The position numbers were made by a program, and so were the translations under genes. Under the pieces are notes generated by a model, which saw only the letters and a list, made by a program, of their open reading frames with translations, did no database searches and was not told where the DNA came from. A DNA stretch of 64,000 nt, from the NCBI GenBank assembly GCA_017434755.1, contig JAFRER010000006.1:97886-161885 (forward strand), read 5' to 3'. Positions 1 to 45,400 of this stretch are shown in pieces (the first letter of the stretch is position 1; each line of letters starts with the position of its first letter). Source of the DNA: Oscillospiraceae bacterium (GTDB taxonomy: Bacteria > Bacillota > Clostridia > Oscillospirales > Oscillospiraceae).

Positions 1-27
1 AGCACCGCACGTTTCGCACTGTTTCAT
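1..27 (-). CDS. 5' end of a zinc-ribbon protein (runs off window)
   Basis: Only the first nine codons are inside the window. They read MKQCETCGA, so a CxxC knuckle appears at residues 4-7, as at the N-terminus of the zinc-ribbon protein just upstream (90-1322). An AAAGGATGATCACCC ribosome-site region precedes the ATG at 27. It lies on the same strand as the 90-1322 gene, with one GGTTTACATAA box in between. The start and frame are inferred from so few codons that the call is tentative. Confidence 0.4.
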
Positions 28-61
28 GGGTGATCATCCTTTCTGTATAATTTGTCGCTTT

Positions 62-72
62 GGTTTACATAA
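62..72 (+). repeat. XerD-arm-like box GGTTTACATAA, copy 1
   Basis: Exact copy of the 11-base box that recurs at 3063, 4466, 7197 and 27304, with variants at 8647 and 45390. Read on the minus strand it is TTATGTAAACC, which matches the XerD-side arm of Bacillota dif (TTATGTAAACT in Bacillus subtilis) except for the last base. Unlike the other copies in the first 9 kb, no conserved hairpin lies directly to its left. Confidence 0.7.
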
Positions 73-89
73 TGTTATGAGGATCGCCC

Positions 90-1322
90 TCAGGACTCCT
101 TCCATGCCGGGTCGTCCAGCAGGCGCTGATAGAGGCCGGTCTGCTTGCCGGTCTTGTCCTTGAGCGTGAGCAGGGTGGCGAAGTGGTACCAGTTGCCGTT
201 CTCGTCGCGCAAGTGTGTCTCCTCCGCGAACTGTTCGTACTGGCTGAAGGCGGCGATCTCGTTGCGCCAGCAGTAGGTGTAGCTCTGCGCGCGTCCGTCG
301 GCGCCGAAGCAGATGCGGAAGATCTCCCGGTCTGCGGCCTTCGCGGAGCCTGTCTCAAGGCTTTCGCCCCAGACGGAAAGCGTGTAGATGTTCGCGCCTT
401 CGCCGCTCCGCGGGAAGGTGACCCGCTCCACGGTATGCCCGCCGAGGGCGAGAGTGTCGGTGTAGTTCTTCTTTGCGGCCAGATCGGTGTACATGTCGTT
501 CCTGCCGGGGACGATCCGCCGTTCCACCGAGAGCACGTCGTCCGTGTAGGCGACCTCGCGGGTGACCGCGGCCTTCCCCTCGGCGTTCTGCCGGGTAATC
601 GTCGCAAGCCTTCCGTCCGGCAGATAGACGAACTCGTAGCTGAACTCATATACCCCCTTGGAAAGCGACCGCACATACAGGATCTCGCGTGTCTCGGGAT
701 CGAAGCTGAGCAGGAGGGACTTGCTGCCGCCCGAATAGGTGAAAACGAGCTCCTGATCGCTGCTCGCGCCGACGGCGGCGGTCTGTCCGGTCCCGGTCTC
801 CGGGGGAGTTCCCTCCGGCGGCGTTTCGTCCGGTTCCTGTTCCTCCGGCGGCAGCGTATCGGCCTCCGGCGGGGCTGTGTCCGCCGGTGCGGGGGTCGGC
901 GTCGGAGTTGGCTTAGGCGTCGGGGCGGGCGGGGGCAAAGGGGTCGCTTCGGGGCTTGCGGTCGCGGCGGGAGTTGGTTTCGGCGTGGGCTTGGGCGGCG
1001 TGGGGATCGGCTTGTAAAGGCTCAGGAAAATGCTTCCGAGGATGAACAGCGCCGCCACGGAGATCAGGATGCCGGTGTGCTTCCGCTTCACAACGGCCTT
1101 CGCCTCTTCCTCCGGGTGGCTTACCTGCGGCCGGGAGATGCCGCACCGGTAGCAGTATTCCAGCTCGCTGCTGTTCTCCGTCCCGCAGTAGCGGCACTTC
1201 CATACGGTCTCCACCGTCTCTCCGGCCTTGGGCTTTACCGAGCGGGGCCTTTCGCTGCCGCAGCCGATACAGTACCGGTATTGATCGGGATTTTCCTTCC
1301 CGCATTTTTCACATTTCCACAT
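90..1322 (-). CDS. Double zinc-ribbon membrane protein with proline-rich stalk
   Basis: About 410 aa. Residues 1-26 and 41-66 each form a CxxC-x10-CxxC zinc ribbon (WKCEKCG...CIGCG and WKCRYCG...CYRCG). One transmembrane helix follows at about 81-103, then a long Pro/Thr/Glu-rich stalk (about 104-190) and a C-terminal domain of about 220 residues that I do not recognise. The predicted topology is cytoplasmic zinc ribbons with the large domain outside. The ATG at 1322 is chosen because GAGAGG sits upstream at good spacing and the zinc ribbon starts immediately; the longer ORF to 1376 has no comparable site. The stop lies 18 bases from box copy 1. Function unknown; related architectures occur at 3191 and 4506. 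Confidence 0.85.
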   Translation of the reverse strand: MWKCEKCGKENPDQYRYCIGCGSERPRSVKPKAGETVETVWKCRYCGTENSSELEYCYRCGISRPQVSHPEEEAKAVVKRKHTGILISVAALFILGSIFLSLYKPIPTPPKPTPKPTPAATASPEATPLPPPAPTPKPTPTPTPAPADTAPPEADTLPPEEQEPDETPPEGTPPETGTGQTAAVGASSDQELVFTYSGGSKSLLLSFDPETREILYVRSLSKGVYEFSYEFVYLPDGRLATITRQNAEGKAAVTREVAYTDDVLSVERRIVPGRNDMYTDLAAKKNYTDTLALGGHTVERVTFPRSGEGANIYTLSVWGESLETGSAKAADREIFRICFGADGRAQSYTYCWRNEIAAFSQYEQFAEETHLRDENGNWYHFATLLTLKDKTGKQTGLYQRLLDDPAWKES

Positions 1323-1521
1323 GGCGCATCCCTCTCGCGCATCATAGTCTCCGTGCCGCCGGAACCGCAGAAACATGCCTGTCTGAATGCCTGAGTCGAA
1401 TACTTAAAAACATAATACCATAAGCGCCGGAAAAAAACAGAGGAAATTTGCGCTTATATGCCGTTTTTACGGGGATCCGCGGCCGGGAGCGGGAAAAAGA
1501 CGCGCATGCTTCCGGGAAGGC

Positions 1522-1550
1522 TCGACAAGCGCGTCAGTTTGGTATAGAAT
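1522..1550 (+). promoter_or_regulatory. Sigma-A-type promoter for the 1623 lipoprotein
   Basis: TCGACA (1522-1527) and TAGAAT (1545-1550) are separated by 17 bases, about 70 bases before the ATG. The 300-base divergent spacer 1323-1622 shows nothing else I can assign. Confidence 0.6.
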
Positions 1551-1622
1551 AAGAAAACACTATCAGCATGGAAAGCCGGACCGGAGGGAGATCCCGCCGG
1601 CCGCGGTTTCCGGAGGTCGGAA

Positions 1623-2978
1623 ATGAAAAGGATCATATGCCTGCTGCTCGTCGCCGCGCTCGTGCTCAGTCTGGCGGGCTGCGGGATGGTTAGCGACAGG
1701 GTGCTCGCCGTGGAGAAGGCCATAGACGAGATCGGCGAGGTCACCCTCGAGAGCGCGGACAGGATCGCCGAGGCGCGGAAAGCCTTCGACAGACTGCCCG
1801 AAAAGGAAAAGAAGAACGTCTCCAACGCCCGCAAGCTCGTTGCGGCCGAGGAGGAACTGCAGGACCTGAAGAACAACGGGACCGTCACGGAGCTGATCGA
1901 TGCGCTCTGGGCGCTCCGGGACATCATCCCCGCCTCGGCGGAGGAGATCGAAAAGCTGCAGGCCCGCCTCGACGAGCTCCCGCAGAAGCTGCGCGACCGG
2001 GTGAACAACAGCGGCCGGCTGGAGGACGCGCGGGAGGTCCTCGCCGTGTCGGAGACGATCGAGGCCCTCGGCGACATCCTGCCCGCCCTGAAGGAGGTCC
2101 CCGCCAGGCTGAAAGAGGCCGGGGAGGAGAGCCTCGCGGACGTGCCGGAGATCCTGGCCGGGGCGAAGGAGAGCATCGACGAGGCGCTTTCCGCCTTTGA
2201 CGCTCTCGATCCGGAGCTGCAGCGGATGCTGGGCAACAGCACCCTCCTGGAGGATGCCAAGGACTGGTATCAGGCCGCGCAGTACGCCGTGGCGGAGAAG
2301 CACTTCGGCGAATGGGAGATGGAGAAGGCCCTGGAGCTTTACCGTCAGTTCCCGGAGGACTATAAGGAGACCGCTTCGCGGATCGCTTCCGCGGAGAACT
2401 TCCTGAACTGGCAGGCCGCGCGGGCGGATCTGCCGGGCAAATGGGTCTGGGACGGCCAGACTTCCGCGGGATCCGACGGCAAGACCTATCGGGCGGATTT
2501 CCCGGAGCTCACCATCCGCGAGCTTCAGCCGGACGATGCCTTCGCCGGCATTCGCTTCCGGGAGAAGCGGCTGCTGTATGTGGAGCTCGTGCCCGGGACG
2601 CTGAAGAAGGCGGAGCTGAGCCAGACGGTGCTGAACAAGCTGCATGAGCTCCGGCCGAAGTCCTTCACGGCGGCGAACATCGAGAGCTATCTCCACCTGG
2701 ACGACCATCTGGACGGCGGCCGCCAGGTCTACAGCGGGGACATCCCCACCGATACCGGCCCCTGGGAAGGCGCCCGCCTCGTTCTGCACGGCGGCATCCA
2801 CACCCATGGGACCTCCGGCGGCAGCAGCTGGGACCACCTGCTCCAGATGACCATCACCCTGCAGGAGGACGGCCGGCTGCGCGTGGAGTACTACGTGCGC
2901 GACCGCGACAAGGTGACCGACCCGAACGCCCTTCCCGCCATGGCCGAGACGGTGGTCTTCTACTACGACAAAAAGTGA
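1623..2978 (+). CDS. Lipoprotein of unknown function
   Basis: 451 aa. A signal peptide ends in the lipobox LAGC (Cys about residue 20), so the protein should be lipid-anchored on the outer face of the membrane. Residues about 25-265 are strongly charged and helical, with repeated segments built around LDALPEKLRDRV-like phrases, suggesting a helical-repeat or coiled-coil stalk. The C-terminal 190 residues look globular and include GGIHTHGTSGGSSWDH. The start has GGAGG seven bases upstream. It is transcribed away from the 90-1322 gene and ends 38 bases before a conserved hairpin. No family assigned. Confidence 0.85.
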   Translation: MKRIICLLLVAALVLSLAGCGMVSDRVLAVEKAIDEIGEVTLESADRIAEARKAFDRLPEKEKKNVSNARKLVAAEEELQDLKNNGTVTELIDALWALRDIIPASAEEIEKLQARLDELPQKLRDRVNNSGRLEDAREVLAVSETIEALGDILPALKEVPARLKEAGEESLADVPEILAGAKESIDEALSAFDALDPELQRMLGNSTLLEDAKDWYQAAQYAVAEKHFGEWEMEKALELYRQFPEDYKETASRIASAENFLNWQAARADLPGKWVWDGQTSAGSDGKTYRADFPELTIRELQPDDAFAGIRFREKRLLYVELVPGTLKKAELSQTVLNKLHELRPKSFTAANIESYLHLDDHLDGGRQVYSGDIPTDTGPWEGARLVLHGGIHTHGTSGGSSWDHLLQMTITLQEDGRLRVEYYVRDRDKVTDPNALPAMAETVVFYYDKK

Positions 2979-3016
2979 CCGGCCTGCAGCCGCACAGAGA
3001 ATACGGAAACAGACAC

Positions 3017-3073
3017 AAGGGCAGAGGATCGCTCCTCGGCCCTTGGTTTTTGCCCCCCGTTTGGTTTACATAA
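3017..3073 (+). repeat. Hairpin + GGTTTACATAA element, copy 2
   Basis: Hairpin 3017-3044 has arms AAGGGCAGAGGA / TCCTCGGCCCTT (one mismatch, loop TCGC), followed 18 bases later by GGTTTACATAA (3063-3073). It sits between two plus-strand lipoprotein genes. The hairpin plus GGTTTTTG could also terminate the upstream gene, but the arm sequence is shared with copies at 4424 and 27261, which independent terminators would not be. Confidence 0.75.
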
Positions 3074-3121
3074 CACAGATCAGGCCGCCTGCGGAGAAAT
3101 GCGGGAAAGGGGTGATTTTTC

Positions 3122-3150
3122 TTGCGTTCGGATACCGGCCTTGCTATAAT
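3122..3150 (+). promoter_or_regulatory. Promoter for the 3191 gene
   Basis: TTGCGT (3122-3127), a 17-base spacer and a perfect TATAAT (3145-3150), 40 bases before the ATG. It lies to the right of box copy 2, so the gene carries its own promoter between two hairpin-box elements. Confidence 0.65.
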
Positions 3151-3190
3151 GATAAAGCATTAAATTATTGCGTTCACGGAGGCCGCCGAA

Positions 3191-4399
3191 ATGAAAAAGA
3201 AGATAGCCGTACTGCTGATGCTCGTCATCCTTGTTGGCCTGCTCGCGGGCTGCGGGGGAAAATTGAGCGGGACCTATGTGCCCGTGGATGATTACTACTC
3301 CGAATACGATGCCCTTACGTTCAAAGGAAACAAGGTCACGTTCACCACCTGGGGCTTTGATACGTCCGGCACGTACAAGATCAAGGGCGATCAGATCACC
3401 TTAAAAGCCAATTTTTATGGCTATGAGGCCGAAGAGACCTTGAGCTTCAGCAAGAAAGGCAAGTCCATCTTCATCGACGGCGAGGAATATGTCAGAGGCA
3501 AGAAGCCGGACAGCATTTCGGCAGTTGAGGCTGTCGGTGCCATTACCGGCGTCTCCTCGCAGATCAACAGGGCAAAACGCACCGCCACCACCCTCCTTGT
3601 CATCTTTCTCGTGGTGCTTCCGATCATTGCGATCGCCGTGCTCGTGCTGATGCGCAAGAAGATCCCCTGGGTGGATTCCACGGTCGACAAGGTCTGCGCA
3701 TGGGCGAAAAAGACCTTCAACAAAGTGGCGGATCCCGAAACGAGAGCGCATATAAAGGAAGGCGCGGCGAAGGTCGGCAATAAGGTCTCCGTCGGCGCCG
3801 GAAAAGCGGCCGCAAAGGTCTCCTCCGGCGTAGCGTCCGGCACCGCCGCCTTCAAGGCGGAAATAGCAAAGAGGCAGGCCGCGAAGGGCTGGAAGTGCCC
3901 GAACTGCGGAACGTCCAACAGCCCCCAGAGCCGCTTCTGCACCAACTGCGGCACCGAAAAACCGGCGGACGTGCAGCCGGTACCGGTGACCGTGGCCACG
4001 GAGGTCGAGGAATTCCCGGAGGAACACCGTCCCGCCCAGGCCGCTCCCGCCCAGCCGAAGGGACCGGCCCAGGCCCCGGTGGACAGTACGGACAGTTCCC
4101 GGCTGCCTCCCGCGAGACGTTCCGTCACCGAGGATCGCTGCTGCGTCTGCGGCAAGCCGCTCGACGAGGAGCAGGTGAAGCTGTTCGACCATCCCTACGG
4201 CGTGGAGGCCCGCCTGTGCAAGAAGTGCCACACGGCCATGTTCATCCTCGCCTCCGGGACCGACATGAATCAGTTCAACAATGCGAACAGATACCTCAAG
4301 CACTATATCGCCACGGCGGACCCGGTGGTGGAAAAGAGCCTGAACAAGTTCATCAGCAAGGCCGAGGCGCGTATCTACAACGACATGATGGGAGAATAA
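3191..4399 (+). CDS. Lipoprotein-type membrane protein with zinc ribbon and C-terminal Cys domain
   Basis: 402 aa. The N-terminus has a signal peptide with lipobox LAGC, then a small beta-rich extracytoplasmic domain (GTYVPVDDYYSEYDAL...). A transmembrane helix lies at about 132-154. On the far side is a linker rich in Ala/Lys/Gly, a CPNCG-x10-CTNCG zinc ribbon (about 235-256) and a C-terminal domain (about 313-402) opening with RCCVCGKPL. That last domain is recognisably related to the C-terminus of the 4506-7049 protein. Topology would put the sensor-like domain outside and both Cys-rich modules inside. Function unknown; a surface sensor is one possibility. Confidence 0.87.
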   Translation: MKKKIAVLLMLVILVGLLAGCGGKLSGTYVPVDDYYSEYDALTFKGNKVTFTTWGFDTSGTYKIKGDQITLKANFYGYEAEETLSFSKKGKSIFIDGEEYVRGKKPDSISAVEAVGAITGVSSQINRAKRTATTLLVIFLVVLPIIAIAVLVLMRKKIPWVDSTVDKVCAWAKKTFNKVADPETRAHIKEGAAKVGNKVSVGAGKAAAKVSSGVASGTAAFKAEIAKRQAAKGWKCPNCGTSNSPQSRFCTNCGTEKPADVQPVPVTVATEVEEFPEEHRPAQAAPAQPKGPAQAPVDSTDSSRLPPARRSVTEDRCCVCGKPLDEEQVKLFDHPYGVEARLCKKCHTAMFILASGTDMNQFNNANRYLKHYIATADPVVEKSLNKFISKAEARIYNDMMGE

Positions 4400-4423
4400 G
4401 CTCCCGTCCCATAGAAAACACAC

Positions 4424-4476
4424 AGGGCAGAGGAACGTTCCTCTGCCCTTGTTCTTTCTGCGTGTGGTTTACATAA
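4424..4476 (+). repeat. Hairpin + GGTTTACATAA element, copy 3
   Basis: A perfect 26-base palindrome at 4424-4449 (half AGGGCAGAGGAAC) is followed 16 bases later by GGTTTACATAA (4466-4476). It separates the convergent genes at 3191 (+) and 4506 (-), so it may double as a bidirectional terminator. The arm is the same sequence as in copies 2 and 6. Confidence 0.8.
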
Positions 4477-4505
4477 TTCAAAAACGCCCGGAGGCCGCCG
4501 CGGCT

Positions 4506-7049
4506 TCATCTGCCGGCGAGATACTCGTCGGCGCTGTCGCTCAGCTTTGTCAGCCGCTCGGCGATCAGCGGATCCACGCCGCCCAGACGCGAACGCACAA
4601 AGGCCTGCGCCTGACGGATCTCCTGCGCATCCTCGCCGGAGCGGAGGATGTTCAGCTGCCCGTAGCACCCGGGATCCACGCGGGACTCGCGCCCGTCCTT
4701 CGCCCGGAGGAACACCTTGAAGTCCTCTCCCAGCACCTGCCCGCAGATGCAGCAGCGCGTGTCGGAGAAGGCGGGGAGCGGCGCGGCGGCCGGCGGACGG
4801 CCCGCGGTGTGGGCGGGAGCAGCCGTGCTTTTCGCCGCCGTGGCCCGTTCCGCCTGCCGGACGGGGCGAGCCGCCTTCGCGCGCTCTTTCCGGCTCCTGC
4901 GCGTCAGCAGGATGATGAGCAGCGCGATCAGCGCGGCAAGGAGGAACACGATAAGCAGGATCAGCAGCAGGTGCTGGCGCAGACCTGCGGCAAGGCGCCC
5001 GATCCGTGCGGCAAAGCCGCCCTTTTCAGCCTTTGCGCCGCCTGTGGTTTCCGTGCTCCCGCTTCCGGCCGGGGCAGAGTCGGTGCTCGCAGAGGAGCCT
5101 GTGTCCGGACTGCCGCCCGGAACAGCGGAGCCGTCCTGCCCGGAGCCCGTTCCGCCGCTGGCTGCACCGCCGGCTGTCCGCCCGCCGCCCGCGCTGAGGT
5201 CCCAGGACGGCACGTTCACGCCTCTCTGATAGCGCAGCAGCTGCCAGCTCTGCCTTCCGTTATAGCTGTATGGCTTCACCACCGCAGCGCCCGAGTGCTC
5301 AAGCGTGAGGCGTCCGTCCCCCGAGGCGGTGCCGGCGTCCATTTTGTAGAAAGCGGTGTCAACGCCGTCGGTCTTATGATATTCCATGATGTCGAGCCGG
5401 TAGATATCGAAAAGCAGGCGGTAGGTCCCGTCGCCGAGGTCCTCCATGCTGCGCACGATGCTCAGCCGGTTGTACGACTCGCCCGACGCGGCGGGGAACC
5501 AGAACATGCCGCTGTCGTAGAAGCTGGGATAGGGCCCGTAGATGTTCTCGTAGAGATAGGTCGAGCGGGGATACTGCGCGGCCTCCTGCTGGGTGAAGCT
5601 GAAGCCGAAGAACCGCTGCCAGACCTCGGCCGCCTCGGAGAACGGCAGTGTGAAGTAAGCACCTCTTGCCGTCTGGTTCACGCCCAGCGCATCCGGACGG
5701 TTGATGGCGCACCAGAGATGCGCGAAGCCCACCAGATCGTCCAGATAGGTGAAATGCGCGCAGTCCGTGTCGAAGCGGCGGCGGGAGAAAACGGCCTGCT
5801 CCCCGAAGTTCGAGAGGAAGATGTTCGCCTCGTACTGCTGCTCCGCGCTCATCTGCACGGGGGTGCCGAGAGTCTGCCCCGCCTGGTCCCAGAGCTGCGT
5901 GTTGAGGAAGGCCGGCCAGCCCATGGCGCGGATCTGCCGGAGCGAATAGAACACGAGGCGCGTGCTTGATTCGTCCTGGCTCCAGGAGAACAGCTCCCCG
6001 TCGCGGGTGAGCTGCTGCTTGTCCGTGCCGCCGCCGGCGGTCATCGATTGTTTCATCACGGGGATGCTCACGAACTCCCCGTCGCCCATGTCGTAGTAGG
6101 TAACGGTGAAGGAAGTGCCGGTGCTGAGGCGGCAGAAGAAGCCCGGATAGGGCGAGTTTTCATAGCGGTAGGGCTGCTCGCCGGCGGAGCCGCGGAAGAG
6201 CACCTCGCCGTTCACGCAGGAGAAGACGAAGGTCTTCGCCGTGATCTGCGTCGGCCCGCCGTTGAAGGCGATCAGCTCGGGCACGCCGTCGCGGTCCATG
6301 TCCAGCAGGCAGAAGCCGGGCTCCGCGTAGCCGAGAGCCGCCTGCCCGTCCGTGAGGTCCGTGTTGAGAAACTCCAGATCCGTGTTGAGGAATTCGTAGT
6401 TCAGAAGGAAGTTGCCGTATACCGCCGGCCAGGACTTGTCGGATCTGTCAAAGGCGGGAGCCGGGTCCTCGGCCTTCGGGGCGGAGGCGATCTGCGTGCC
6501 GGCCGTGACGCTGAAGAAGCTGTCCCAGCCCATGCTGAGGATCTGGGAGCGCGAGTAGAAGGTGAGATAGTTCTTATAGCCCTTCACCTCGCTGTCGGGG
6601 ACCTCCCGCTCCGTGAGGGTCCGGCCGTTGAGCTCGTAGTACACGGTGCGGAACACGCCGTTGTTCCCGTCCGTGCAGAACAGGCCCGGCCACGCGGGAT
6701 CGTCCACATAGTACAGGTGGCACTCGCGGAATCCGATCTGCCCCACGCTCGAAACGCCGAAGAAGTGCGTGAACACCGTCACGTAGCGCCCGGCGAGGGC
6801 GGGACTGCCGTTGAAGGCCAGGAGCGCCGGCTCGCCGTCGTGATCGAAGTCATACAGGCAGAAACCCGGCTCCACGCCGTTTTCCGGCGGGAAGTATTCG
6901 TTGGTATAGGTGCTTTCGTTCGCCGGATCCGTGACGAACACGCGGAAAGCGTCCGACCAGCCCTCGTCGGCGGAGGCCCGGACGGGCGGCACGAGCGAAA
7001 CTGCCAGCAGCACCGCCAGCAGGATGGGAAGCAGGCGTTTTTTGACCAT
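4506..7049 (-). CDS. Large exported membrane protein with DxDxDG repeats and Cys-rich tail
   Basis: About 847 aa. A signal peptide (MVKKRLLPILLAVLLA) leads into a large exported region with two similar modules, each carrying an FG-GAP/calcium-loop-like motif: YDFDHDGEPALLAFNG (about 63) and LDMDRDGVPELIAFNG (about 246). A Gly/Ser-rich stretch (about 640-690) precedes a transmembrane helix (about 693-715) and a basic cytoplasmic linker. The last 84 residues (RCCICGQVLG...) are homologous to the C-terminus of the 3191 protein. The start at 7049 is chosen because the signal peptide begins there; the ORF extends upstream without one. The stop faces box copy 3. Ligand and role unknown. Confidence 0.85.
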   Translation of the reverse strand: MVKKRLLPILLAVLLAVSLVPPVRASADEGWSDAFRVFVTDPANESTYTNEYFPPENGVEPGFCLYDFDHDGEPALLAFNGSPALAGRYVTVFTHFFGVSSVGQIGFRECHLYYVDDPAWPGLFCTDGNNGVFRTVYYELNGRTLTEREVPDSEVKGYKNYLTFYSRSQILSMGWDSFFSVTAGTQIASAPKAEDPAPAFDRSDKSWPAVYGNFLLNYEFLNTDLEFLNTDLTDGQAALGYAEPGFCLLDMDRDGVPELIAFNGGPTQITAKTFVFSCVNGEVLFRGSAGEQPYRYENSPYPGFFCRLSTGTSFTVTYYDMGDGEFVSIPVMKQSMTAGGGTDKQQLTRDGELFSWSQDESSTRLVFYSLRQIRAMGWPAFLNTQLWDQAGQTLGTPVQMSAEQQYEANIFLSNFGEQAVFSRRRFDTDCAHFTYLDDLVGFAHLWCAINRPDALGVNQTARGAYFTLPFSEAAEVWQRFFGFSFTQQEAAQYPRSTYLYENIYGPYPSFYDSGMFWFPAASGESYNRLSIVRSMEDLGDGTYRLLFDIYRLDIMEYHKTDGVDTAFYKMDAGTASGDGRLTLEHSGAAVVKPYSYNGRQSWQLLRYQRGVNVPSWDLSAGGGRTAGGAASGGTGSGQDGSAVPGGSPDTGSSASTDSAPAGSGSTETTGGAKAEKGGFAARIGRLAAGLRQHLLLILLIVFLLAALIALLIILLTRRSRKERAKAARPVRQAERATAAKSTAAPAHTAGRPPAAAPLPAFSDTRCCICGQVLGEDFKVFLRAKDGRESRVDPGCYGQLNILRSGEDAQEIRQAQAFVRSRLGGVDPLIAERLTKLSDSADEYLAGR

Positions 7050-7153
7050 AGCGTACCTCGGATGCAGCAAGTCTTGTATTCTGCGAAGATTATACCATCC
7101 CGCCCTGCGCAGCACAAGCGATCCGGCGCCCGCCGGAAGCGGAAAATGAAACG

Positions 7154-7207
7154 GCAGGGGACCGGTGAAGTCCTCTGCTGTCTGCCTTGTCTGTTTGGTT
7201 TACATAA
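7154..7207 (+). repeat. Hairpin + GGTTTACATAA element, copy 4
   Basis: Hairpin 7154-7178 (arms GCAGGGGAC / GTCCTCTGC, one G-U pair) retains the GCAGRGGA core of copies 2, 3 and 6. GGTTTACATAA follows at 7197-7207, 18 bases on. It lies between two minus-strand genes, downstream of the 7246-8538 stop and upstream of the 7049 start. Confidence 0.72.
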
Positions 7208-7245
7208 TTTTTAAAAGCCGTCCCGCAAATGCAGCTTGTAGGCGC

Positions 7246-8538
7246 TCAGCCCTCCATCGTGAACACCGTCAGCACCGGCGAGCCGTAGCCGAAGAGGTCC
7301 GCTCCCAGCTGCGTCAGCTGGATGCAGTCGCCGATCCGCGCAAGAGCATAGGAGGCGTTCTGCTGCCGGCCGTTTGTGTCGGTGTAGCTGAAGCTTACCG
7401 TGCTGCCGCTCTCGTCAAAGGAGAAGGTCCCCGTTACGCTGCTGCGCTGGCCGAAGCCGTTGTCCGCGCCGAGGGCGGTGAAGCTGCCGTCGGTCCCGAG
7501 CGTCAGCTCGCGGGAGAGAACGCAGCTCGAAGTATCGAAGCCTGCGTTTTCCTCCTCCGTCCAGGAGAACACCGGCAGCGAGTAGTTCTGCAGGGTGTAT
7601 TCGCTGCGCCAGGTCCGGCCCCGTACATCCGCCGCCGCGCCCTGCTCCCCGCCGAGGAAGATCCCCGTCGGCGCCGGGAACGAGCCGTCCGCTCCGTAGC
7701 CGATCTGGTAGGTGTTGAAATAGATGACGAGCTCCCGGTTTTCCACATAGAACTCAAGGTCCTCCAGCCGCAGATCCGTCGGGTATTTGGGTTCCATCTC
7801 CCGCTCCACGGTGGCCGCGTTCGCCTTCGCGCGGATGAATTCCGTCAGATCCGTGCCGCTGCCGAGAGTCGAGGCGATCTTCTCCAGTGTGATCGGCATC
7901 CCGGTCTGCAGGTCGTAGTTCACGCATTCGGCGTCAATGTTGTGCACCCCGCCCATGTACCAGTCCGTGAACAGCGCCGCGCTGAAGATGTCCTCGTCAA
8001 ACTCCTTCACATCCGCGGATACGGTGTTCGTGAAGGCGACCCAGCCCCAGCCTTCGGTCTCGGCCGAGGCCTTCAGCTCCTCCGCATAGGAGATGGTGTC
8101 CTGCACAAACGAGTTGTTGAGGCTGTAGACATAGTCCGCAAGACCCTTGCGCAGCTCGTCGTTCACGCCGACATACCGGTACGGCTCGCCGCTCAGCTGC
8201 ACAAGGTCGTACCAGAGCTCCACCAGCATAACGTCTTTCCCGTCATAGAGCGAGAAATCATAGCGGGTGATCTCGATGCCGTCCCCCTCATAGACCTTCT
8301 CCGCCTTTGCCTTCTCCTCGGAGAACACGTACTGTTCCGGCTGCACCTCAGCGGGAGCGGTCTCCTCCGGTGCGGGTTCCGCAGCGGGAGTCGCCGCGGG
8401 AACGGGAGATGCCGTCCGCGCAGGCTCCGGCACAGCGGGGCGCTTCCCGGAAGGGGAGATCTGCGACGGAAGGATCCCGCAGCCCGAAAGGGCGGCGAGC
8501 ATCCCCAGCAGCAGGATGAATGCGATCGTTCTTTTCAT
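7246..8538 (-). CDS. Lipoprotein with DUF3298/RsiV-like C-terminal domain
   Basis: 430 aa. A signal peptide with lipobox LSGC is followed by a Pro/Ala/Glu-rich linker (to about residue 65). The body has features of the DUF3298 fold seen in RsiV and PdaC: GGVHNIDAECVNYDLQTGMPITLE and, about 80 residues later, LVIYFNTYQIGYGADG. In RsiV this domain binds lysozyme; here no anti-sigma helix is present, so a cell-wall or ligand-sensing role is only inference. The C-terminal 120 residues look like a beta-rich extension. The ATG at 8538 has GGAGG upstream. It is a single gene between box copies 4 and 5. Confidence 0.83.
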   Translation of the reverse strand: MKRTIAFILLLGMLAALSGCGILPSQISPSGKRPAVPEPARTASPVPAATPAAEPAPEETAPAEVQPEQYVFSEEKAKAEKVYEGDGIEITRYDFSLYDGKDVMLVELWYDLVQLSGEPYRYVGVNDELRKGLADYVYSLNNSFVQDTISYAEELKASAETEGWGWVAFTNTVSADVKEFDEDIFSAALFTDWYMGGVHNIDAECVNYDLQTGMPITLEKIASTLGSGTDLTEFIRAKANAATVEREMEPKYPTDLRLEDLEFYVENRELVIYFNTYQIGYGADGSFPAPTGIFLGGEQGAAADVRGRTWRSEYTLQNYSLPVFSWTEEENAGFDTSSCVLSRELTLGTDGSFTALGADNGFGQRSSVTGTFSFDESGSTVSFSYTDTNGRQQNASYALARIGDCIQLTQLGADLFGYGSPVLTVFTMEG

Positions 8539-8611
8539 GGCTTTGCACCTCCTGTATCTGACTGCGGGTATCATACCACCCGCACATCCGCCGTTCATGA
8601 CGAAAACGTGA

Positions 8612-8674
8612 ACAGGGAAGGCCTTTTGCAAGGTCCTCCCTGTTTTGGTTAACATAATATATACGTTCTCTTAT
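8612..8674 (+). repeat. Hairpin + dif-like site, copy 5
   Basis: Hairpin 8612-8643 (outer arms ACAGGGA / TCCCTGT with internal mismatches) is followed three bases later by GGTTAACATAA (8647-8657), then TATATA (8658-8663). This is the copy most like a complete Bacillota dif: the XerD-side arm and the six-base centre match the consensus, while the XerC-side arm (8664-8674) matches poorly. It overlaps the stop codon of the 8671 gene. Confidence 0.7.
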
Positions 8675-9072
8675 TCCGCGGATCCCGTGCCGGTCCCTTC
8701 CGCTTCGGGGGAAGGCTCCCCCGCCGCTTCGGCGGCCTTGGCGGCTTCCGCCTCGAGCGCGGCCTGCCGTATGGCCTTAGCTCGGGCGGTCCGGTGCTTA
8801 TAGATCGCGTTGCATACCAGCGCGCCCAGAAGCGCGAACACAACGGACAGCAGGGCGCCCACGATCAGCCCGTTCATAACGAAGCTCGCGTAGGGCGAGG
8901 CGGAGCGGAGCATGATGAGCAGATAGATCATCTGGAACACGATCCCGATCGCGAAGGGGATCAGCCAGCCCCTCGTCCGGAAGCACGCGAGGAGAAAAGC
9001 TATGACGAGAAAACCGAGGAAGAACAGGTTGTAGCCGACGCCGGACAGCAGATAATACACGTAGTTGTTCAT
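8671..9072 (-). CDS. Small multi-pass membrane protein
   Basis: 133 aa. Three to four hydrophobic helices fill residues 1-95 (MNNYVYYLLSGVGYNLFFLG onward), followed by a short basic stretch (YKHRTARAKAIRQ) and an Ala/Glu-rich tail ending GTGSAE. GAGGA lies seven bases before the ATG at 9072. It is the last gene at the right end of the box-delimited run, its stop touching dif-like copy 5. No family recognised. The spacer from 9073 to 9320 shows no gene or clear site. Confidence 0.75.
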   Translation of the reverse strand: MNNYVYYLLSGVGYNLFFLGFLVIAFLLACFRTRGWLIPFAIGIVFQMIYLLIMLRSASPYASFVMNGLIVGALLSVVFALLGALVCNAIYKHRTARAKAIRQAALEAEAAKAAEAAGEPSPEAEGTGTGSAE

Positions 9073-9320
9073 ACGGATGTCCTCTTTCCGTTTGATGTTT
9101 GGATGTGTTTGCCGTGTTTCTGTTCAGCAGAAGTATAGCACAGGACCGGCCGAAAGCACAAGAAGCTTTCTGCGGGGCCTCCTATGGAGATGTACCCCGC
9201 GGAGCGGCGTGACGGGGGGAGAAGGAAACCGTGACCAGAGTGTATGATGAGCATGAGAAGGTCCCGCATCGCGCGGAGACGGCGGGGAAAGCTCACAGGA
9301 TCGGATAACGGCAAAAGCTT

Positions 9321-9842
9321 ATGAAGGAGAACGGCACATTGCGGATCATTGACTGGCCGGCCATAAAGCTGGAATACAAGATCTCGGATATTTCCTATAA
9401 GGCGCTGGCGGAAAAGCACCACGTGAACCTGAAGCACCTCGAGAGAAAAGCGTCCCGCGAGGGATGGGTCGCGGAAAAGAAAGCCTTTCAGGCAGGCCAC
9501 GTCAGAGAGCCCGGCCGGGATGTCCCCATGAGCCTCGTGAGCGAGAGGTCGCTGCTCATCGAGGAATACAGCGAGAGGCTCCTGTCGGAGGTCATGCGGC
9601 AGCACATGCTGGTGGTCGAAAAAGCGGACGAGCTGCTCAACTACGGGGAGCCCTTCAGCCCGCGGGATATGAAGCTCGTGGCTGATCTGATGGGCAAAAT
9701 ACTGGATAACCGGAAGAAGATCCTTGCCGCCGCAAAAGAGCTGAAACAAACGGATGACCAAAAACTGATCATCGAGTGGGTGAACAACGAGTGGGACGAG
9801 CCGGTTTATGAGGAAGACGCGGATGGTGTGCCGCGCCCGTGA
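9321..9842 (+). CDS. Phage terminase small-subunit-like DNA-binding protein
   Basis: 173 aa. The N-terminal 55 residues (DWPAIKLEYKISDISYKALAEKHHVNLKHLERKASREGWV) have the helix-turn-helix pattern of small terminase/phBC6A51-type proteins that recognise phage packaging sites. The C-terminal part is helical and charged. No large terminase, portal or other phage gene is near, so this is either a solitary domesticated protein or a prophage leftover. No convincing ribosome site precedes the ATG at 9321; the true start may be slightly downstream. Confidence 0.7.
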   Translation: MKENGTLRIIDWPAIKLEYKISDISYKALAEKHHVNLKHLERKASREGWVAEKKAFQAGHVREPGRDVPMSLVSERSLLIEEYSERLLSEVMRQHMLVVEKADELLNYGEPFSPRDMKLVADLMGKILDNRKKILAAAKELKQTDDQKLIIEWVNNEWDEPVYEEDADGVPRP

Positions 9843-9867
9843 CATTTGCGGAGATCTGCGTTATAAT
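9839..9867 (+). promoter_or_regulatory. Promoter for the HD hydrolase
   Basis: GTGACA (9839-9844), 17 bases, then TATAAT (9862-9867), overlapping the end of the preceding gene and 37 bases before the ATG at 9904. Confidence 0.6.
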
Positions 9868-9903
9868 GATCCTGTTATTCTATGGGAACGGAAGGCGGAT
9901 ACG

Positions 9904-10548
9904 ATGAACGACCTGGTGAAAAAAGCGGATGCGTTCGCCGCGAAGGTGCATGAAGGGCAGACCGATAAGGCCGGCCTCCCGTACATGACCCATCCCCGTG
10001 CGGTGGCGGCCATGATCGAGGACGAAACGGCGAAGGTCGCGGCCCTCCTGCACGACACGGTGGAGGACACGGACGTCACCCTTGAGGAGATACGGGCGGA
10101 ATTCGGCGACGAGATCGCGGCCGCGGTGGATCTTCTCACGCACCGCCCCGGCGTGGACTATTTCGAATATGTCGCCGGGGTAAAGAATGACCCGGTCGCC
10201 TGGCGGGTGAAGCTGGCCGACCTTACCCACAACATGGACCTGTCGAGGATCCCGGCTCCCACCGATGCCGACTTTGCGCGCATAGAGAAATACAAAAAGG
10301 CCTACGCGATCCTGACGGAGGGTCTGGTCCGGCCGGACGGGACCTCAGATGTCCTTACGGAGAGGGAGATCCTGCATGCCGCGTCGCAGTTCAGGCTGAA
10401 CGACGATTCCGGCATCATCTCCGGCAAGGAAAGCGGATATGATCACAGCCTTACGCCGGAGGAATCAAGGGAGCGGATAAGGCGGATGAGGGAGGAGATC
10501 CTGAAACGCCTCGAGGAGCTCGGTTACGGCAAAGCGGATAAAAAATAA
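9904..10548 (+). CDS. HD-domain phosphohydrolase, RelA/SpoT-hydrolase-like
   Basis: 214 aa. Residues 1-150 match the small HD family related to the (p)ppGpp hydrolase domain of SpoT and MESH1: HEGQTDKAGLPYMTHP (first metal His), VAALLHDTVEDTD (the HD pair and ED motif) and RVKLADLTHNMD. No synthetase, TGS or ACT domain is present, so it is a small alarmone-hydrolase-type enzyme or a related nucleotidase. The last 60 residues are a charged helical extension. Start chosen at 9904 for the GGAAGGCGG ribosome site. Confidence 0.85.
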   Translation: MNDLVKKADAFAAKVHEGQTDKAGLPYMTHPRAVAAMIEDETAKVAALLHDTVEDTDVTLEEIRAEFGDEIAAAVDLLTHRPGVDYFEYVAGVKNDPVAWRVKLADLTHNMDLSRIPAPTDADFARIEKYKKAYAILTEGLVRPDGTSDVLTEREILHAASQFRLNDDSGIISGKESGYDHSLTPEESRERIRRMREEILKRLEELGYGKADKK

Positions 10549-11979: not shown

Positions 11980-12077
11980 GATCGGCTCCTCAAATCAGTT
12001 GATGAAAAAAGTATAGCATCCGGCGCGGGAATCGGCAACAGGGGAGAGCCGCGGGGATCCCTTTGCCGGACCGGAAC

Positions 12078-12293
12078 TCACGGGACCTGTTCAATGATCA
12101 TTTCCGATGATCCCGGCTCAAGCGAATTGTCTTCGTCATAATGGATGTGATCGCCCGGAACGCCGTCGGCAAGCGCCAGAAGCTGCCTTGCCAGCGAAAG
12201 CAATCCTTCTCTGTTCGCCGATATCACCGCTTTGCCGTCCGCAGCTTTTACCCGGATCTCCGATCCGTCTTCCCATTCGATCTTCGTTGTCTG
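12078..12293 (-). pseudogene. Imm32-like small protein without a start codon
   Basis: The minus-strand frame right after the DUF6440 stop reads TTKIEWEDGSEIRV...GLLSLARQLLAL...GDHIHYDEDNSLEPGSSEMII, 71 codons to the stop at 12078. The HIHYD...LExGSxE pattern resembles the Imm32-type small immunity family. There is no ATG, GTG or TTG in this frame near the expected start: the codon before TTK is CAG, directly after the TGA of DUF6440. The nearby GTG is in another frame. Either the start was lost by a small deletion, or the two ORFs are joined by stop readthrough, or a sequence error is present. Confidence 0.55.
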
Positions 12294-12485
12294 TCACTCC
12301 TTCTTCGTAATGACGGCTTTTCCTTCGGAGTCAAGAAGCGGCGTGATGCCGGCGCCGTAACCGGCTTTCCAGGCAAGGTAATGTACACCGGTCTCTTTAT
12401 CCACGATGATCTGGCGCGTGCCGGATTCAAGCCACGCGCTTCCGTCTTTGTAGATCACTTCGAATCTGCTTTGCTTGTTAGCCAT
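12294..12485 (-). CDS. DUF6440 family protein
   Basis: 63 aa. The sequence RFEVIYKDGSAWLESGTRQI IVDKETGVHYLAW followed by GAGITPLLDSEGKAVI matches the pattern of DUF6440 proteins: a short beta-rich fold with an IVDKETGVxYL core and a TPLLDxxGKPVI end. The ATG at 12485 has GGAGGAAC upstream; the longer ORF to 12521 lacks one. Role unknown. It lies directly before the start-less Imm32-like frame, which suggests a paired origin. Confidence 0.75.
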   Translation of the reverse strand: MANKQSRFEVIYKDGSAWLESGTRQIIVDKETGVHYLAWKAGYGAGITPLLDSEGKAVITKKE

Positions 12486-12517
12486 GTTCTGTTCCTCCCA
12501 TATAATAGATCTATCGG

Positions 12518-13168
12518 TCATAGCCCGGTAAAAGACTTGATTTCCTTCTCCAGGAGACGGAAAACATTTGCGACCAGATAACCATCGGCGATCGCATGAT
12601 TCAGGCGAACGGTCACGGGCATGACCAGCCTGCCGTTTTCCTCCCTGTATTTTCCCCAGTTGATGATCGGCGCAAAAAACAAATGACCATCGGGCAGTTC
12701 GACATTCAGTGCGTCATAAGAAAGCCACGATATATACGACGCATCGAACCAGTTGGGGTGGTTCGCCATATCCAATCCGTATTCTCTCGTCTTTTTTGCC
12801 TCTTCAACATCCCGCAATGCGGCAGCATAGAACTTTTCATAGTCCTCATCGTATTCCGTATACACGGGAGTGCAGGTTTCCGTATCTTCATGAAAAACAT
12901 ACTGCGTAGGATTGATCACGTCATAACAGATCAGTTCATCAGTCTGCCAGAGATAACCCATTCTGTAATCGTCGCGTGAATTGAGCACCTTTGAAAGGAT
13001 ATAAAGAAAGTTGATATAAAACTTTGTCCCGGTCTTCCCGGAATATGCAGCAAGTTCGGTCACATCGATCCTCGCCGTCATGGAAGTCGAGCATTTGCAA
13101 TCTTCCGAAAAGTGACGGAACACACCTTTTCTATAATAGGTCTCTCTGTCAATTACCTTATAGTTCAT
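12518..13168 (-). CDS. Chloramphenicol O-acetyltransferase-like protein (CatA type)
   Basis: 216 aa, the usual CatA length. N-terminal DRETYYRKGVFRHFSED, a central FYINFLYILSKVLN and the C-terminal active-site region LNHAIADGYLVANVF fit the family. The catalytic His of HHxxxDG is present (NHAIADG), but the preceding His is Asn and the Cys is Ala, as in many chromosomal CatA-like proteins of unproven specificity. It would transfer acetyl from acetyl-CoA to a hydroxylated acceptor; resistance is not guaranteed. The start at 13168 overlaps the upstream CPBP gene by 11 bases and has AGGA eight bases away, indicating translational coupling. Confidence 0.83.
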   Translation of the reverse strand: MNYKVIDRETYYRKGVFRHFSEDCKCSTSMTARIDVTELAAYSGKTGTKFYINFLYILSKVLNSRDDYRMGYLWQTDELICYDVINPTQYVFHEDTETCTPVYTEYDEDYEKFYAAALRDVEEAKKTREYGLDMANHPNWFDASYISWLSYDALNVELPDGHLFFAPIINWGKYREENGRLVMPVTVRLNHAIADGYLVANVFRLLEKEIKSFTGL

Positions 13169-14039
13169 CTTCGTTATCCTCATGATCTGCGATTTGCCGG
13201 GATTCATGGAGCTGCCTTTCTTTCTTATCCGCTGCAAGCCACAAGACAACGGATGCTGTCAGCCAGATAACTCTGTGGACATTTGCCGCTGTGCTTCCGG
13301 GAAAGCCGTCAAATAATGCGTTCCAGTCATATACCGCGCCGATCGCATCGATAAAAGTATGATACAGCGCGCAGGCAATCACGCTTTTTGTCGATTTGTA
13401 GATCGCTGCCAAAGCAAACGCCCAGATAAAGATCGTGATGGCGAATCCGATGACACTGTCTCCGTAATGGTTGGATGTCGGGTCTGTAAACACCGGGAAA
13501 TGCCAGACGAACCAGATCGCGGCGGTAAGAAGGACTGAAAACGGATACGGCATCCTTTTATCCAGTTCCGGCTGCAGCAGGCCCCGCCAGCCGGTTTCTT
13601 CGGCGATGCCGACAAACGGTATCATGATCAGGAAACCGAGAGGGAACATATACCAGGGCGAGCCGTTGGGCGTTCCGAACAGGATCGCGTAAACAAAAGC
13701 GAGCAGACAGAACCCGCCTGTGATCAGGATGGTCTTCCGCTTGTCCTCCGTGCGGAAGATGTCGCGGAACATCTGCCGGAGACCGGTCTTTTCAATGAAC
13801 AGGGAAATGATCAGCACCGCCACAAAAGGCGTCGGCGTTGAGAATAACAGTCCGATTGCCGCATACAGGAGATAACCGGCTGTCATTTTTCCCGTTTCGC
13901 TGTGCTCGATCGAATACGGCAGCAGCCACACGTTGAGGGTGATATAGCAAAAAGCAGACAGAAGGATCACCAGCAGCAGATACCACCACAATCTGTTTAA
14001 CTGAACTTTGTTCGGGTTTGATGCTGTTGCATTTCTCAT
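13158..14039 (-). CDS. CPBP intramembrane metalloprotease
   Basis: 293 aa with seven to eight hydrophobic helices. The CPBP/Abi glutamate motif EETGWRG (about residue 143), the WHFP motif (about 178) and a later ALYHTFID provide the expected metal-binding and catalytic residues. The family cleaves membrane substrates or gives immunity to bacteriocins. The ATG at 14039 with GGAGA upstream is preferred over the longer ORF. It is the first gene of a two-gene operon with the CAT-like gene. Confidence 0.85.
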   Translation of the reverse strand: MRNATASNPNKVQLNRLWWYLLLVILLSAFCYITLNVWLLPYSIEHSETGKMTAGYLLYAAIGLLFSTPTPFVAVLIISLFIEKTGLRQMFRDIFRTEDKRKTILITGGFCLLAFVYAILFGTPNGSPWYMFPLGFLIMIPFVGIAEETGWRGLLQPELDKRMPYPFSVLLTAAIWFVWHFPVFTDPTSNHYGDSVIGFAITIFIWAFALAAIYKSTKSVIACALYHTFIDAIGAVYDWNALFDGFPGSTAANVHRVIWLTASVVLWLAADKKERQLHESRQIADHEDNEDEL

Positions 14040-14116
14040 AAAAAGATCTCCAAAGACCGATTTTTCGCACACATGTATCCTATCACACCCGCCGTTGGTC
14101 CGCAACAGCGCTCTGC

Positions 14117-14386
14117 CCTCTGTACTGATCTATCCTGTCTGTTTCCTGTTCTATACTGACCTATACTTAACTAACCTATACTAACCTATCCTATACTATC
14201 CTTACCTGTGTATCCATTTTGGATCCAAATTGGATACAGGTCGTATACAAGTCGTATACAGAGGACAGATGCACTGACCTGACCTATACTAACCTATACT
14301 ATCCTGACCTGCGTCAACGGGTCGTATCGTTTTCGTGACGCATCCGTGACCGGTTCGTGACTAGTCCGTGACGGCATGCCCTAGCG
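14117..14386. repeat. Repeat-rich spacer with three degenerate repeat families
   Basis: The 435-base spacer 14040-14474 has no gene. It holds (a) many copies of CTATACT / ACCTATAC-type words at 14150-14210 and again at 14278-14310, (b) GTCGTATAC twice in tandem (about 14238-14262) next to GGATCC/TTGGATACA words, and (c) four xCGTGAC units about 10-11 bases apart at 14332-14375. The arrangement looks iteron-like, but no replication gene is near. Edges are approximate. Confidence 0.6.
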
Positions 14387-14412
14387 AGGAATCTGATAGA
14401 GTCTGCTGAGTG

Positions 14413-14441
14413 TTGCCCGAACGATGCGGGAATGATACAAT
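14413..14441 (+). promoter_or_regulatory. Promoter for the 14475 gene
   Basis: TTGCCC (14413-14418), 17 bases, TACAAT (14436-14441) preceded by TG two bases upstream (extended -10). It directly follows the repeat-rich spacer, which could therefore act as an operator region. Confidence 0.6.
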
Positions 14442-14474
14442 GATCATAGTATAAACCATTGGAGGCCTTGTAGA

Positions 14475-15122
14475 ATGATCAGGGATATTGCCTCGTTCAC
14501 GAACAGAATGGATTCCTTTCTCGCCCGGAGCAGGGACAGGTGGCAGTATGGAAACGGAATCCTTTACAGGATGTGCCGGGAGGATCCGAAGCATGACGAT
14601 CCGGACGTCGCAGCTGCAAAGGTGTGGCTGATTGGCAGAAGCTATGCCGCCGCCATCGAGAGGAGAAAGAACGCGGACGGATTCTCCGGGGATTTCTACC
14701 ACGATGTGGTTGCTCCGAAGATGACGAGCATCAGCAACGAACTCGACAGCAGGTTGGAGAAGATCAACGCCACGGAATGTCCTGACGAGAACGCGGCTGA
14801 TCTTATCCTTAGCACACATCATTTGCTTATGAAGGCTTTTTATGAGATAACCGGACTTGAGAAAAGGTCTCTCGCAGCTAAGTATCTGCATTTCCACTGC
14901 CCGGCCGCATTTTATATTTACGACAGCATCGCAAGCCGGGAGGCAAGGAAACTGGTTTCGCTGGATAGGGGAGAGTCGGAGAGCTTCCGCATAGAAGACG
15001 TTGATCCGGAATACCGTGATTTCTTCCTGAGATGCCTCGAGATCAAGGCAGCAACTCTGGAACTGTACGGAAGGGAACTGACACCGCGTGAGGTAGACAG
15101 AGTCCTGTTGGGGAATACGTAA
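14475..15122 (+). CDS. Hypothetical protein flanking the restriction island
   Basis: 215 aa, no signal or membrane segment, mostly helical. Notable phrases are KVWLIGRSYAAAIERR and KYLHFHCPAAFYIYDSIASREA, which look conserved-family-like, but I cannot name the family. GGAGG lies nine bases before the ATG. It is transcribed towards the Vsr/restriction operon, sharing a strong terminator with it, and follows a repeat-rich spacer. Being next to a defence island makes a defence or DNA-related role possible, but the sequence does not show it. Confidence 0.75.
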   Translation: MIRDIASFTNRMDSFLARSRDRWQYGNGILYRMCREDPKHDDPDVAAAKVWLIGRSYAAAIERRKNADGFSGDFYHDVVAPKMTSISNELDSRLEKINATECPDENAADLILSTHHLLMKAFYEITGLEKRSLAAKYLHFHCPAAFYIYDSIASREARKLVSLDRGESESFRIEDVDPEYRDFFLRCLEIKAATLELYGRELTPREVDRVLLGNT

Positions 15123-15136
15123 GAAGAGGATAGAAG

Positions 15137-27260: not shown

Positions 27261-27314
27261 AAGGGCAGGGGAGTTATCCTCTGCCCTTTATATCGCTTAG
27301 GCTGGTTTACATAA
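27261..27314 (+). repeat. Hairpin + GGTTTACATAA element, copy 6
   Basis: Hairpin 27261-27288 has arms AAGGGCAGGGGA / TCCTCTGCCCTT (one G-U pair, loop GTTA), nearly the same sequence as copies 2 and 3 some 23 kb away. GGTTTACATAA follows at 27304-27314 after 15 bases. It sits directly behind hicAB, a module type often carried in mobile cassette arrays. Confidence 0.78.
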
Positions 27315-45389: not shown

Positions 45390-45400
45390 AGTTTACATAA
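45390..45400 (+). repeat. Solo XerD-arm-like box AGTTTACATAA, copy 7
   Basis: Identical to the reverse complement of the last 11 bases of Bacillus subtilis dif. It is enclosed by the inverted repeat TTTGATC (45372-45378) / GATCAAA (45410-45416) rather than preceded by the conserved hairpin. It lies between the stop of the glycosyltransferase-like gene and the folA terminator. Confidence 0.65.

Follow-up and report, generated by a model that had tools for sequence, protein, structure and literature searches.

The window, the whole stretch of 64,000 nucleotides analysed here, opens with a run of genes punctuated by a short repeated sequence. A zinc-ribbon protein is encoded on the minus strand at 90..1376, followed by a lipoprotein-like gene on the plus strand (1623..2978, judged by eye), a second plus-strand lipoprotein-like gene with a zinc ribbon (3191..4399), whose C-terminus is related to that of the next product, a minus-strand gene for a large exported protein with no Pfam match (4506..7049, by eye), a further minus-strand lipoprotein-like gene with a weak DUF3298 match below the cut-off (7246..8538, by eye), and a small membrane protein gene, also on the minus strand (8671..9072, by eye). 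A motif scan with the pattern GGTTWACATAA places five boxes among these genes, all on the plus strand, which we read as putative XerD half-sites: GGTTTACATAA at 62..72, 3063..3073, 4466..4476 and 7197..7207, and the variant GGTTAACATAA at 8647..8657. Their places and orientation, as well as the layout of the genes between them, are as the initial annotation had given them. A sixth exact box (GGTTTACATAA, plus strand) lies outside the interval considered there, at 27304..27314, and AGTTTACATAA, which agrees with the dif arm of B. subtilis at every base, lies at 45390..45400 on the same strand; the series thus extends past the five boxes.

The window holds eight sites at up to one mismatch against a shuffle mean of 0.56, and in the genome as a whole (2.3 Mb) GGTTWACATAA occurs 18 times against once for the reversed control. 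Half of these 18, nine sites, lie on the contig carrying the window (C17), five of them within 8.6 kb, a crowding that none of 20,000 simulations with 18 randomly placed sites reached. B. subtilis dif is ACTTCCTAGAATATATATTATGTAAACT, with its XerD arm reading AGTTTACATAATAT on the opposite strand, and the G variant of the box, TTATGTAAACC, is the end of the dif given for Syntrophus. Scored against the B. subtilis arm, the boxes here are identical at 9–11 of 11 bases. The initial proposal that the box corresponds to the XerD-side arm is well supported, both by this identity and by the placement of boxes ahead of xerD, described below, across the family as well as in five others of the order.

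The partner arm is another matter. No B. subtilis-like XerC arm was found at +17 beside the boxes, where the best candidates differ at 4–5 of 11 bases, and a XerD arm of dif lacking a recognisable XerC arm argues that the box is no recombination core; a XerC arm specific to this lineage could nevertheless be present there. A search for canonical dif (XerC arm, 6-bp centre, XerD arm) gave a sole match in this genome, which has three mismatches and is itself a tandem box, and matches in 15 of 60 genomes, all with three mismatches and about as frequent as those of the reversed control. Where dif is expected once per chromosome, the genome carries 27 sites exactly matching RGTTTACATAA. The box is instead the unit of a 14-bp direct repeat: in sequences picked without regard to tandem copies, +14 and –14 bp were the only spacings between neighbours with more than two counts, being seen 5 and 5 times in this genome (n = 68) and 5 and 5 times in relatives (n = 135).

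Four of the five boxes are preceded by a hairpin, as had been noted before; the exception is the box at 62. Two of these plus-strand hairpins are terminator-like, one following the gene at 1623–2978 (GGGCAGAGGA/TCCTCGGCCC, 3017..3044) and one lying between convergent genes (GGGCAGAGGA/TCCTCTGCCC, 4425..4448); the others lie at 7154..7178 (GCAGGGGA/TCCTCTGC) and 8611..8645 (AACAGGGA/TCCCTGTT), and a sequence search located a further GCAGGGGA/TCCTCTGC hairpin before the box at 27304 (27265..27284, plus strand; C17:125150-125169). The arms had been described as sharing a core, GCAGRGGA/TCCTCTGC; this core is perfect before the boxes at 4466 and 7197 (and also at 27304), has one base altered at 3063 and is missing at 8647. 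The accompanying argument, that separate terminators would not share arms, fails because six hairpins with no box, within 11 kb of the same contig (C17:26223-37009), have GCCCTCCC in common. Judged by eye, the hairpins beside the boxes sit at gene ends and have a GC-rich stem with a run rich in T after it, as intrinsic terminators do, and they look like ordinary terminators. The hairpin at 7154..7178 may terminate the minus-strand gene at 7246–8538, in which case the box at 7197 would lie between the stop codon and the hairpin. An Rfam search of window positions 1–10,000 gave no matches.

All three copies of the exact GCAGRGGA hairpin in the genome adjoin boxes. Of 199 hairpins, only nine lie 40 bp or less from a box. 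Folds are found upstream rather than downstream of exact boxes in a ratio of 14 to 7 (p = 0.19), which becomes 31 to 13 (p = 0.01) when sites with one mismatch are included. In three pairs of species, in a comparison set of one genome per species, tandem boxes are retained at the same place; the hairpin arms are alike in two of the pairs, so that retention of the box there is inseparable from retention of the hairpin, and clearly different in the third. The hairpin follows the boxes rather than preceding them in two of the three. We considered the hairpin as the specific partner of the box, a view that the arms shared by box-free hairpins, the small fraction of hairpins near a box and the varying order of the two leave unsupported.

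As for their placement, 25 of the 27 exact sites of this genome are intergenic, and 10 of the 24 with known geometry lie at convergent gene ends, which make up 16% of intergenic bases (p = 0.003). The orientation of the box agrees with GC skew at 18 of 31 sites in this genome (9 of 10 on C17) and at 59 of 94 in relatives; skew thus governs orientation at most weakly, and no clear rule of replication polarity emerges from these counts. Among the 94 sites found in 60 stretches of relatives, a crude finder flagged 59 as lying within open reading frames, where they may be coding coincidences. Twelve mostly complete genomes of the family and order hold 0–7 exact sites each, and a 397-kb contig of a congener (G488) has six sites against 15 reversed controls. 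The scatter of boxes seen in this species is not general across the family.

Boxes are linked to xerD across the family. Among the 29 xerD loci of the family that could be oriented, 25 have boxes upstream, in all 69 boxes against two reversed controls, and one has boxes downstream. Boxes found before proC head an operon that includes xerD. Outside the genus designated g1, a search of 47 genomes with two slightly different patterns at up to three mismatches (reversed control, 0) found the tandem box in nine, and in all nine it lies 0.15–2 kb upstream of xerD; these genomes represent six families, four belonging to the same family as the window (G350, G404, G371 and G439) and the rest to five others (G042, G038, G054, G047 and G037). 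Alignment of the upstream regions reveals a box A, tandem B boxes, a promoter resembling TTGATT-N17-TATATT, and an inverted box C, which in the family lies just 3' of the predicted –10 element, a position that would fit control by XerD of its own gene. The genome of the window encodes a XerD that scores over the cut-off of TIGR02225, and a XerC-like protein that falls short of its own cut-off. Upstream of its own xerD (L213) there are no boxes at up to one mismatch, just relics with two mismatches, at corresponding places. In four genomes, two of them of one genus, xerD lies roughly opposite dnaA, at 0.57, 0.48, 0.49 and 0.43 of the chromosome from it, and in the congener G488 it falls within the region over which the GC skew switches sign.

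We consider it fairly probable that the boxes are XerD half-sites that control xerD, and that the scattered copies in this species may be SMC-unloading sites. Each box would serve the host recombinase XerD as a half-site, the exact sites sitting between genes with a preference for convergent ends next to terminators; tandem boxes head the xerD operon in this family and five others, and XerD would control its own gene; and in this species extra sites would have accumulated, most densely on the contig of the window, which itself may lie near the terminus. By analogy, the scattered sites would most likely work as the XDS of B. subtilis do, with XerD unloading SMC near the terminus. A broader scenario is possible, and we offer it tentatively: across several families the xerD operon, lying at the terminus, would be headed by conserved half-sites, where XerD would repress the promoter of its own gene and also mark the place at which SMC is unloaded or dimers are resolved, in lieu of a canonical dif or masking one. 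In some species the half-sites would have increased in number at gene ends, as head-to-tail arrays with a 14-bp unit, to form an extended unloading zone.

In Bacillus subtilis, Karaboja et al. (2021) reportedly described XerD binding sites (XDS) at which SMC is unloaded. The XDS are XerD half-sites that need no XerC, several of them per chromosome, and to our knowledge XerD half-sites outside dif are known mainly from B. subtilis. Like XDS, the boxes here resemble a XerD arm (9–11 of 11 bases of B. subtilis dif), stand without a B. subtilis-like XerC arm and are multiple, and a link to the terminus, here via xerD, may be shared as well. They differ from XDS in being units of a 14-bp direct repeat, often next to the ends of genes, and in the conserved group that precedes xerD. 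They resemble the XerD arm of B. subtilis dif, but occur in many copies, and at a distance of 6 bp no XerC arm of the B. subtilis kind accompanies them. XerD is described as an SMC unloader in several papers (PMC12322038, PMC13342612, PMC13220808, PMC8242196). XerS/difSL (PMC5357621) offers a dif site linked to the recombinase gene, and in both systems the gene adjoins its presumed binding sites; in contrast to XerS/difSL, the genome here has XerD together with a XerC-like protein, the upstream boxes surround a promoter, and no canonical dif was found above control level. The portions of the literature covered by our search contained no account that we recognised of tandem XerD half-sites or of xerD autoregulation. 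If the proposed reading is right, little-studied Bacillota too would have XerD half-sites outside dif, and in a novel form: tandem units of 14 bp beside gene ends, together with a conserved group heading the xerD operon; the places where SMC complexes leave the chromosome could be predicted from sequence; and a coupling of XerD level with terminus organisation would be suggested.

An alternative that we regard as unlikely, though not negligible, holds that the boxes are operators of some other transcription factor serving xerD and further genes, their likeness to the dif arm being coincidence or descent. The boxes upstream of xerD are indeed grouped around the promoter like an operator set, and some tandem arrays stand directly before ribosome-binding sites (L165; L033 4576). 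However, it is the XerD arm of dif that the 11-bp box matches, the tandem pattern lies upstream of xerD in every one of the nine genomes outside the genus that have it, where a regulator would be expected at other targets too, and the exact sites in this genome favour convergent gene ends. It is quite improbable that the boxes are remnants of mobile or repetitive elements carrying a XerD arm, such as IMEX-like or insertion-sequence ends. By eye, a box lies within insertion-sequence-like repeats at three places (L025 8334, L037 672, L123 9939), and at three others it lies in or next to the inverted repeat GGGTGCAGAT...ATCTGCACCC or a degenerate version of this; yet the flanks of the array boxes have, by eye, no common sequence beyond box and stem, and the boxes clustered ahead of xerD make up a fixed cis region.

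The initial annotation interpreted the locus as a candidate gene-cassette array, in which hairpin and box together would form a recombination site, and a Xer-type recombinase could excise and insert the units. The common orientation of the five boxes, with one or two genes per interval, the resemblance among the hairpins at 3063, 4466, 7197 and 27304, the confinement of the exact core hairpin to boxes, and our failure to find the array as such in relatives are all in keeping with it. Integron cassettes with attC, and pdif or IMEX modules (for IMEX, PMC5357621), likewise have genes separated by repeated sites that carry an arm like those of tyrosine recombinases. Unlike the sites of those systems, the boxes have unpaired arms: each site consists of a single arm, with neither a B. 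subtilis-like XerC arm nor a second inverted core, and the hairpins are terminator-like. The tyrosine recombinase anticipated near the array did not appear, none of the genome's 10 Phage_integrase matches being on C17. The sites are spread genome-wide and mostly intergenic, a strong fold (≤ –15 kcal/mol) lies in the 50 bases upstream of just nine of the 25 exact intergenic boxes, arm-sharing hairpins exist without boxes, and the hairpin follows the boxes in two of the three conserved pairs. In named genomes the composite element turned up at a single locus (L044), where a box accompanies a terminator in a different MAG of the Oscillospiraceae. Paired arms, a nearby integrase, conservation of the array and the element elsewhere thus all fail to support cassettes, a reading that we now judge highly improbable. 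Least credible of all is that ordinary terminators happen to be followed by a chance AT-rich word: despite the terminator-like hairpins and the non-significant fold bias at exact boxes, this is refuted for the box by the 18 sites against one reversed control, by the crowding that no simulation reached and by the xerD linkage, while for the hairpins it holds.

A scan of the window found all five boxes of the array, 11-bp GGTTWACATAA-type sites that are candidate XerD half-sites, at 62, 3063, 4466, 7197 and 8647, where the initial annotation had placed them. With one mismatch allowed, the window holds eight such sites where shuffled sequence gives 0.56 on average, and the whole 2.3-Mb genome has 18 exact ones against a single match for the reversed control. 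Nine of the 18 lie on the 162-kb contig that carries the window, C17 (binomial p 1e-6), and when 18 sites were placed at random 20,000 times, five never fell within 8.6 kb. Genes were mapped by codon usage over 772 kb of retrieved sequence (coding fraction 0.873); on this map, 25 of the 27 exact RGTTTACATAA sites are intergenic and two lie within genes, and convergent gene pairs hold 10 of the 24 exact sites of known geometry, compared with 16% of intergenic bases (p 0.003). One-mismatch sites are placed unlike the exact ones, with 10 of 41 within genes and 16 of the 31 intergenic ones divergent, and therefore many of them may be unrelated.

Likeness of the box to the XerD arm of dif, also proposed initially, is borne out. 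PMC3025954 gives B. subtilis dif as ACTTCCTAGAATATATATTATGTAAACT, the XerD arm of which reads AGTTTACATAA on the reverse strand; the array boxes GGTTTACATAA and GGTTAACATAA are identical to this arm at 10 and 9 of 11 bases, respectively, and the G variant of the box is the end of the dif listed for Syntrophus aciditrophicus in PMC2731167. No XerC arm of the B. subtilis type was found 6 bp from the box at the examined sites, the best candidates differing at 4–5 of 11 bases, and canonical dif did not rise above control level in a search of this genome and 59 relatives. The repeating unit to which the boxes belong is a 14-bp direct repeat. When neighbours with up to three mismatches were counted around sites with at most one, in sequences not selected for tandem copies, 14 was the sole spacing with more than two counts, with five neighbours at +14 and five at −14 both in the own genome (68 sites) and in relatives (135 sites). 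Arrays reach five to six copies when up to four mismatches per unit are allowed (L026, L033, L037 and L169, the last selected for tandem copies).

Boxes of this kind also lie upstream of xerD. Among 120 family genomes, 119 with a match, the best 30 xerD loci were surveyed, 29 of which were oriented by script; in L237 this orientation failed, yet boxes are present. A box with at most one mismatch lies within 1.2 kb upstream of xerD in 25 of the 29 oriented loci and downstream in one, and the upstream regions of these 29 hold 69 boxes against two reversed-control matches. The loci without an upstream box are L232, L238 (449 bp upstream covered), L242 and L213, the xerD of the own genome, which retains two-mismatch relics only. 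Alignment of 21 of the 29 revealed a common order: box A, tandem B boxes 113–128 bp past it, a promoter-like sequence (TTGATT-N17-TATATT-like) and an inverted box C directly downstream of the −10. In many of the loci L217–L239 box A sits within a GTAATCA/TGATTAC inverted repeat, which a second protein might recognise.

Linkage to xerD is also seen outside the genus. Two tandem patterns were searched with up to three mismatches each, the first in the own genome plus 36 from its genus and 23 from elsewhere in the order, the second in the own genome plus 25 from outside the genus; neither reversed control produced a match. Beyond the genus, 9 of 47 different genomes (G044 being in both sets) gave 10 matches, two of them in one G042 region, and in all nine the tandem site lies upstream of xerD. 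The distance is 153 bp in G371, about 0.8 kb in G350 and G404 and about 2 kb in G439, all of the own family f1, and, in five further families, about 0.8 kb in G042 (f7), 0.9 kb in G047 (f12), 1.6 kb in G038 (f3) and 1.7 kb in both G037 (f2) and G054 (f19). A spoIIM-like gene intervenes in several of the nine, and proC (TIGR00112 above cut-off) in G038 and G054. In these two genomes (L159 and L285 of G038, L086 and L157 of G054) the tandem boxes precede proC, with xerD further downstream; a spoIIM-like gene between the proC-side boxes and xerD was matched in G038, not G054. Within the genus, which supplied 17 of the 20 loci retained from the first search, tandem sites are scattered, and xerD was found within the 1.5-kb flanks of none of the 17.

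Binding of half-sites by XerD is already known; as far as we searched the open-access literature, what is new is the arrangement of boxes in 14-bp tandem units, their bias towards convergent gene ends and the conserved group of them heading the xerD operon. The simplest account is that the boxes bind XerD alone. Box C beside the start site, together with the upstream boxes, suggests autorepression at xerD, and a position between convergent genes would keep boxes from interfering with promoters. The scattered boxes resemble the XerD binding sites of B. subtilis, through which XerD unloads SMC complexes according to PMC12322038, PMC13342612, PMC13220808 and PMC8242196.

The initial annotation read the array as candidate gene cassettes punctuated by one composite of hairpin and box, the shared hairpin arms arguing against separate terminators. 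The hairpins preceding four array boxes are real. Perfect copies of their GCAGRGGA core stand at 4466 and 7197 and, outside the array, at 27304; at 3063 the core differs by one base, and at 8647 it is missing. Exact GCAGRGGA hairpins occur only beside boxes (3 of 3 in the genome). Box-free neighbouring hairpins also share arms, the clearest case being a group of six with the common arm GCCCTCCC at C17:26223-37009, left of the window. Arm sharing is thus a local trait of this genome's terminators. Only nine of 199 GC-rich hairpins in the same 772 kb have a box within 40 bp. Of the 25 exact intergenic boxes, nine have a strong fold (at or below −15 kcal/mol over 50 bases) upstream and three have one downstream, the more stable side being upstream at 14 and downstream at 7 (p 0.19). 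In three congener pairs with tandem boxes at a matching place by a homologous gene (best tblastx segment 73–83% identical), the neighbouring hairpin differs markedly in one (L164/L176) and has similar arms in the other two, and it lies 3′ of the boxes in two of the three; there is therefore no fixed hairpin-then-box unit. The array genes are partly paralogous, since the proteins at 3191-4399 and 4506-7049 have related C-terminal segments (27% identity, E 2.6e-8). At C17:89145-89227, left of the window, a single terminator-like hairpin has boxes on both sides: GGTTTACATAA (− strand) and GGTTGACATAA (+ strand), both lying 3′ of the hairpin when read along the strand that carries them. The terminator core of the array, together with a box, recurs at L044 7855-7902 of an Oscillospiraceae MAG, where it lies downstream of a prfB-like gene.

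The scatter of boxes depends on the species. In 12 mostly complete genomes from the family and the order, exact RGTTTACATAAT occurs 0–7 times each, and nine have at least one copy; in the genus it is present in 35 of 36 relatives, 391 in total against three reversed-control matches, a control that ignores coding constraint. The congener G488 has six sites in 397 kb against 15 reversed controls. Of 94 sites inspected in relatives, one of which (G054) belongs to another family, a crude finder flagged 59 as inside reading frames. As to position, the distance from dnaA to xerD, or to the site upstream of xerD, is 0.57, 0.48, 0.49 and 0.43 of the chromosome in G239, G368, G350 and G404, the four genomes listing both on one contig, with sizes rounded, G350 in two contigs, and G350 and G404 from one genus. 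On contig C2 of G488, GC skew is positive to 160 kb, mixed at 160–280 kb and negative beyond, and xerD lies at 178.5 kb; few C17 genes have good matches on C2, and those are scattered. Read along the box, GC skew is positive at 18 of the 31 sites in the own genome, including 9 of the 10 on C17, and at 59 of 94 in relatives, a polarity that is weak at most.

By eye, boxes lie inside insertion-sequence-like repeats of the type TTCGTTCACTTT at L025 8334 (−), L037 672 (−) and L123 9939 (−), in two species, the present one and G012. Also by eye, an inverted repeat, GGGTGCAGAT...ATCTGCACCC, has the box or a one-mismatch version of it in its loop at L025 4839 (−), C5:25957 (−) and L027 3269 (−); two of these three repeats are degenerate, and they are possibly the ends of a mobile element. 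At 12000-22000 of the window, GC content is 0.42–0.51, down from 0.58–0.65, and the stretch is possibly acquired DNA.
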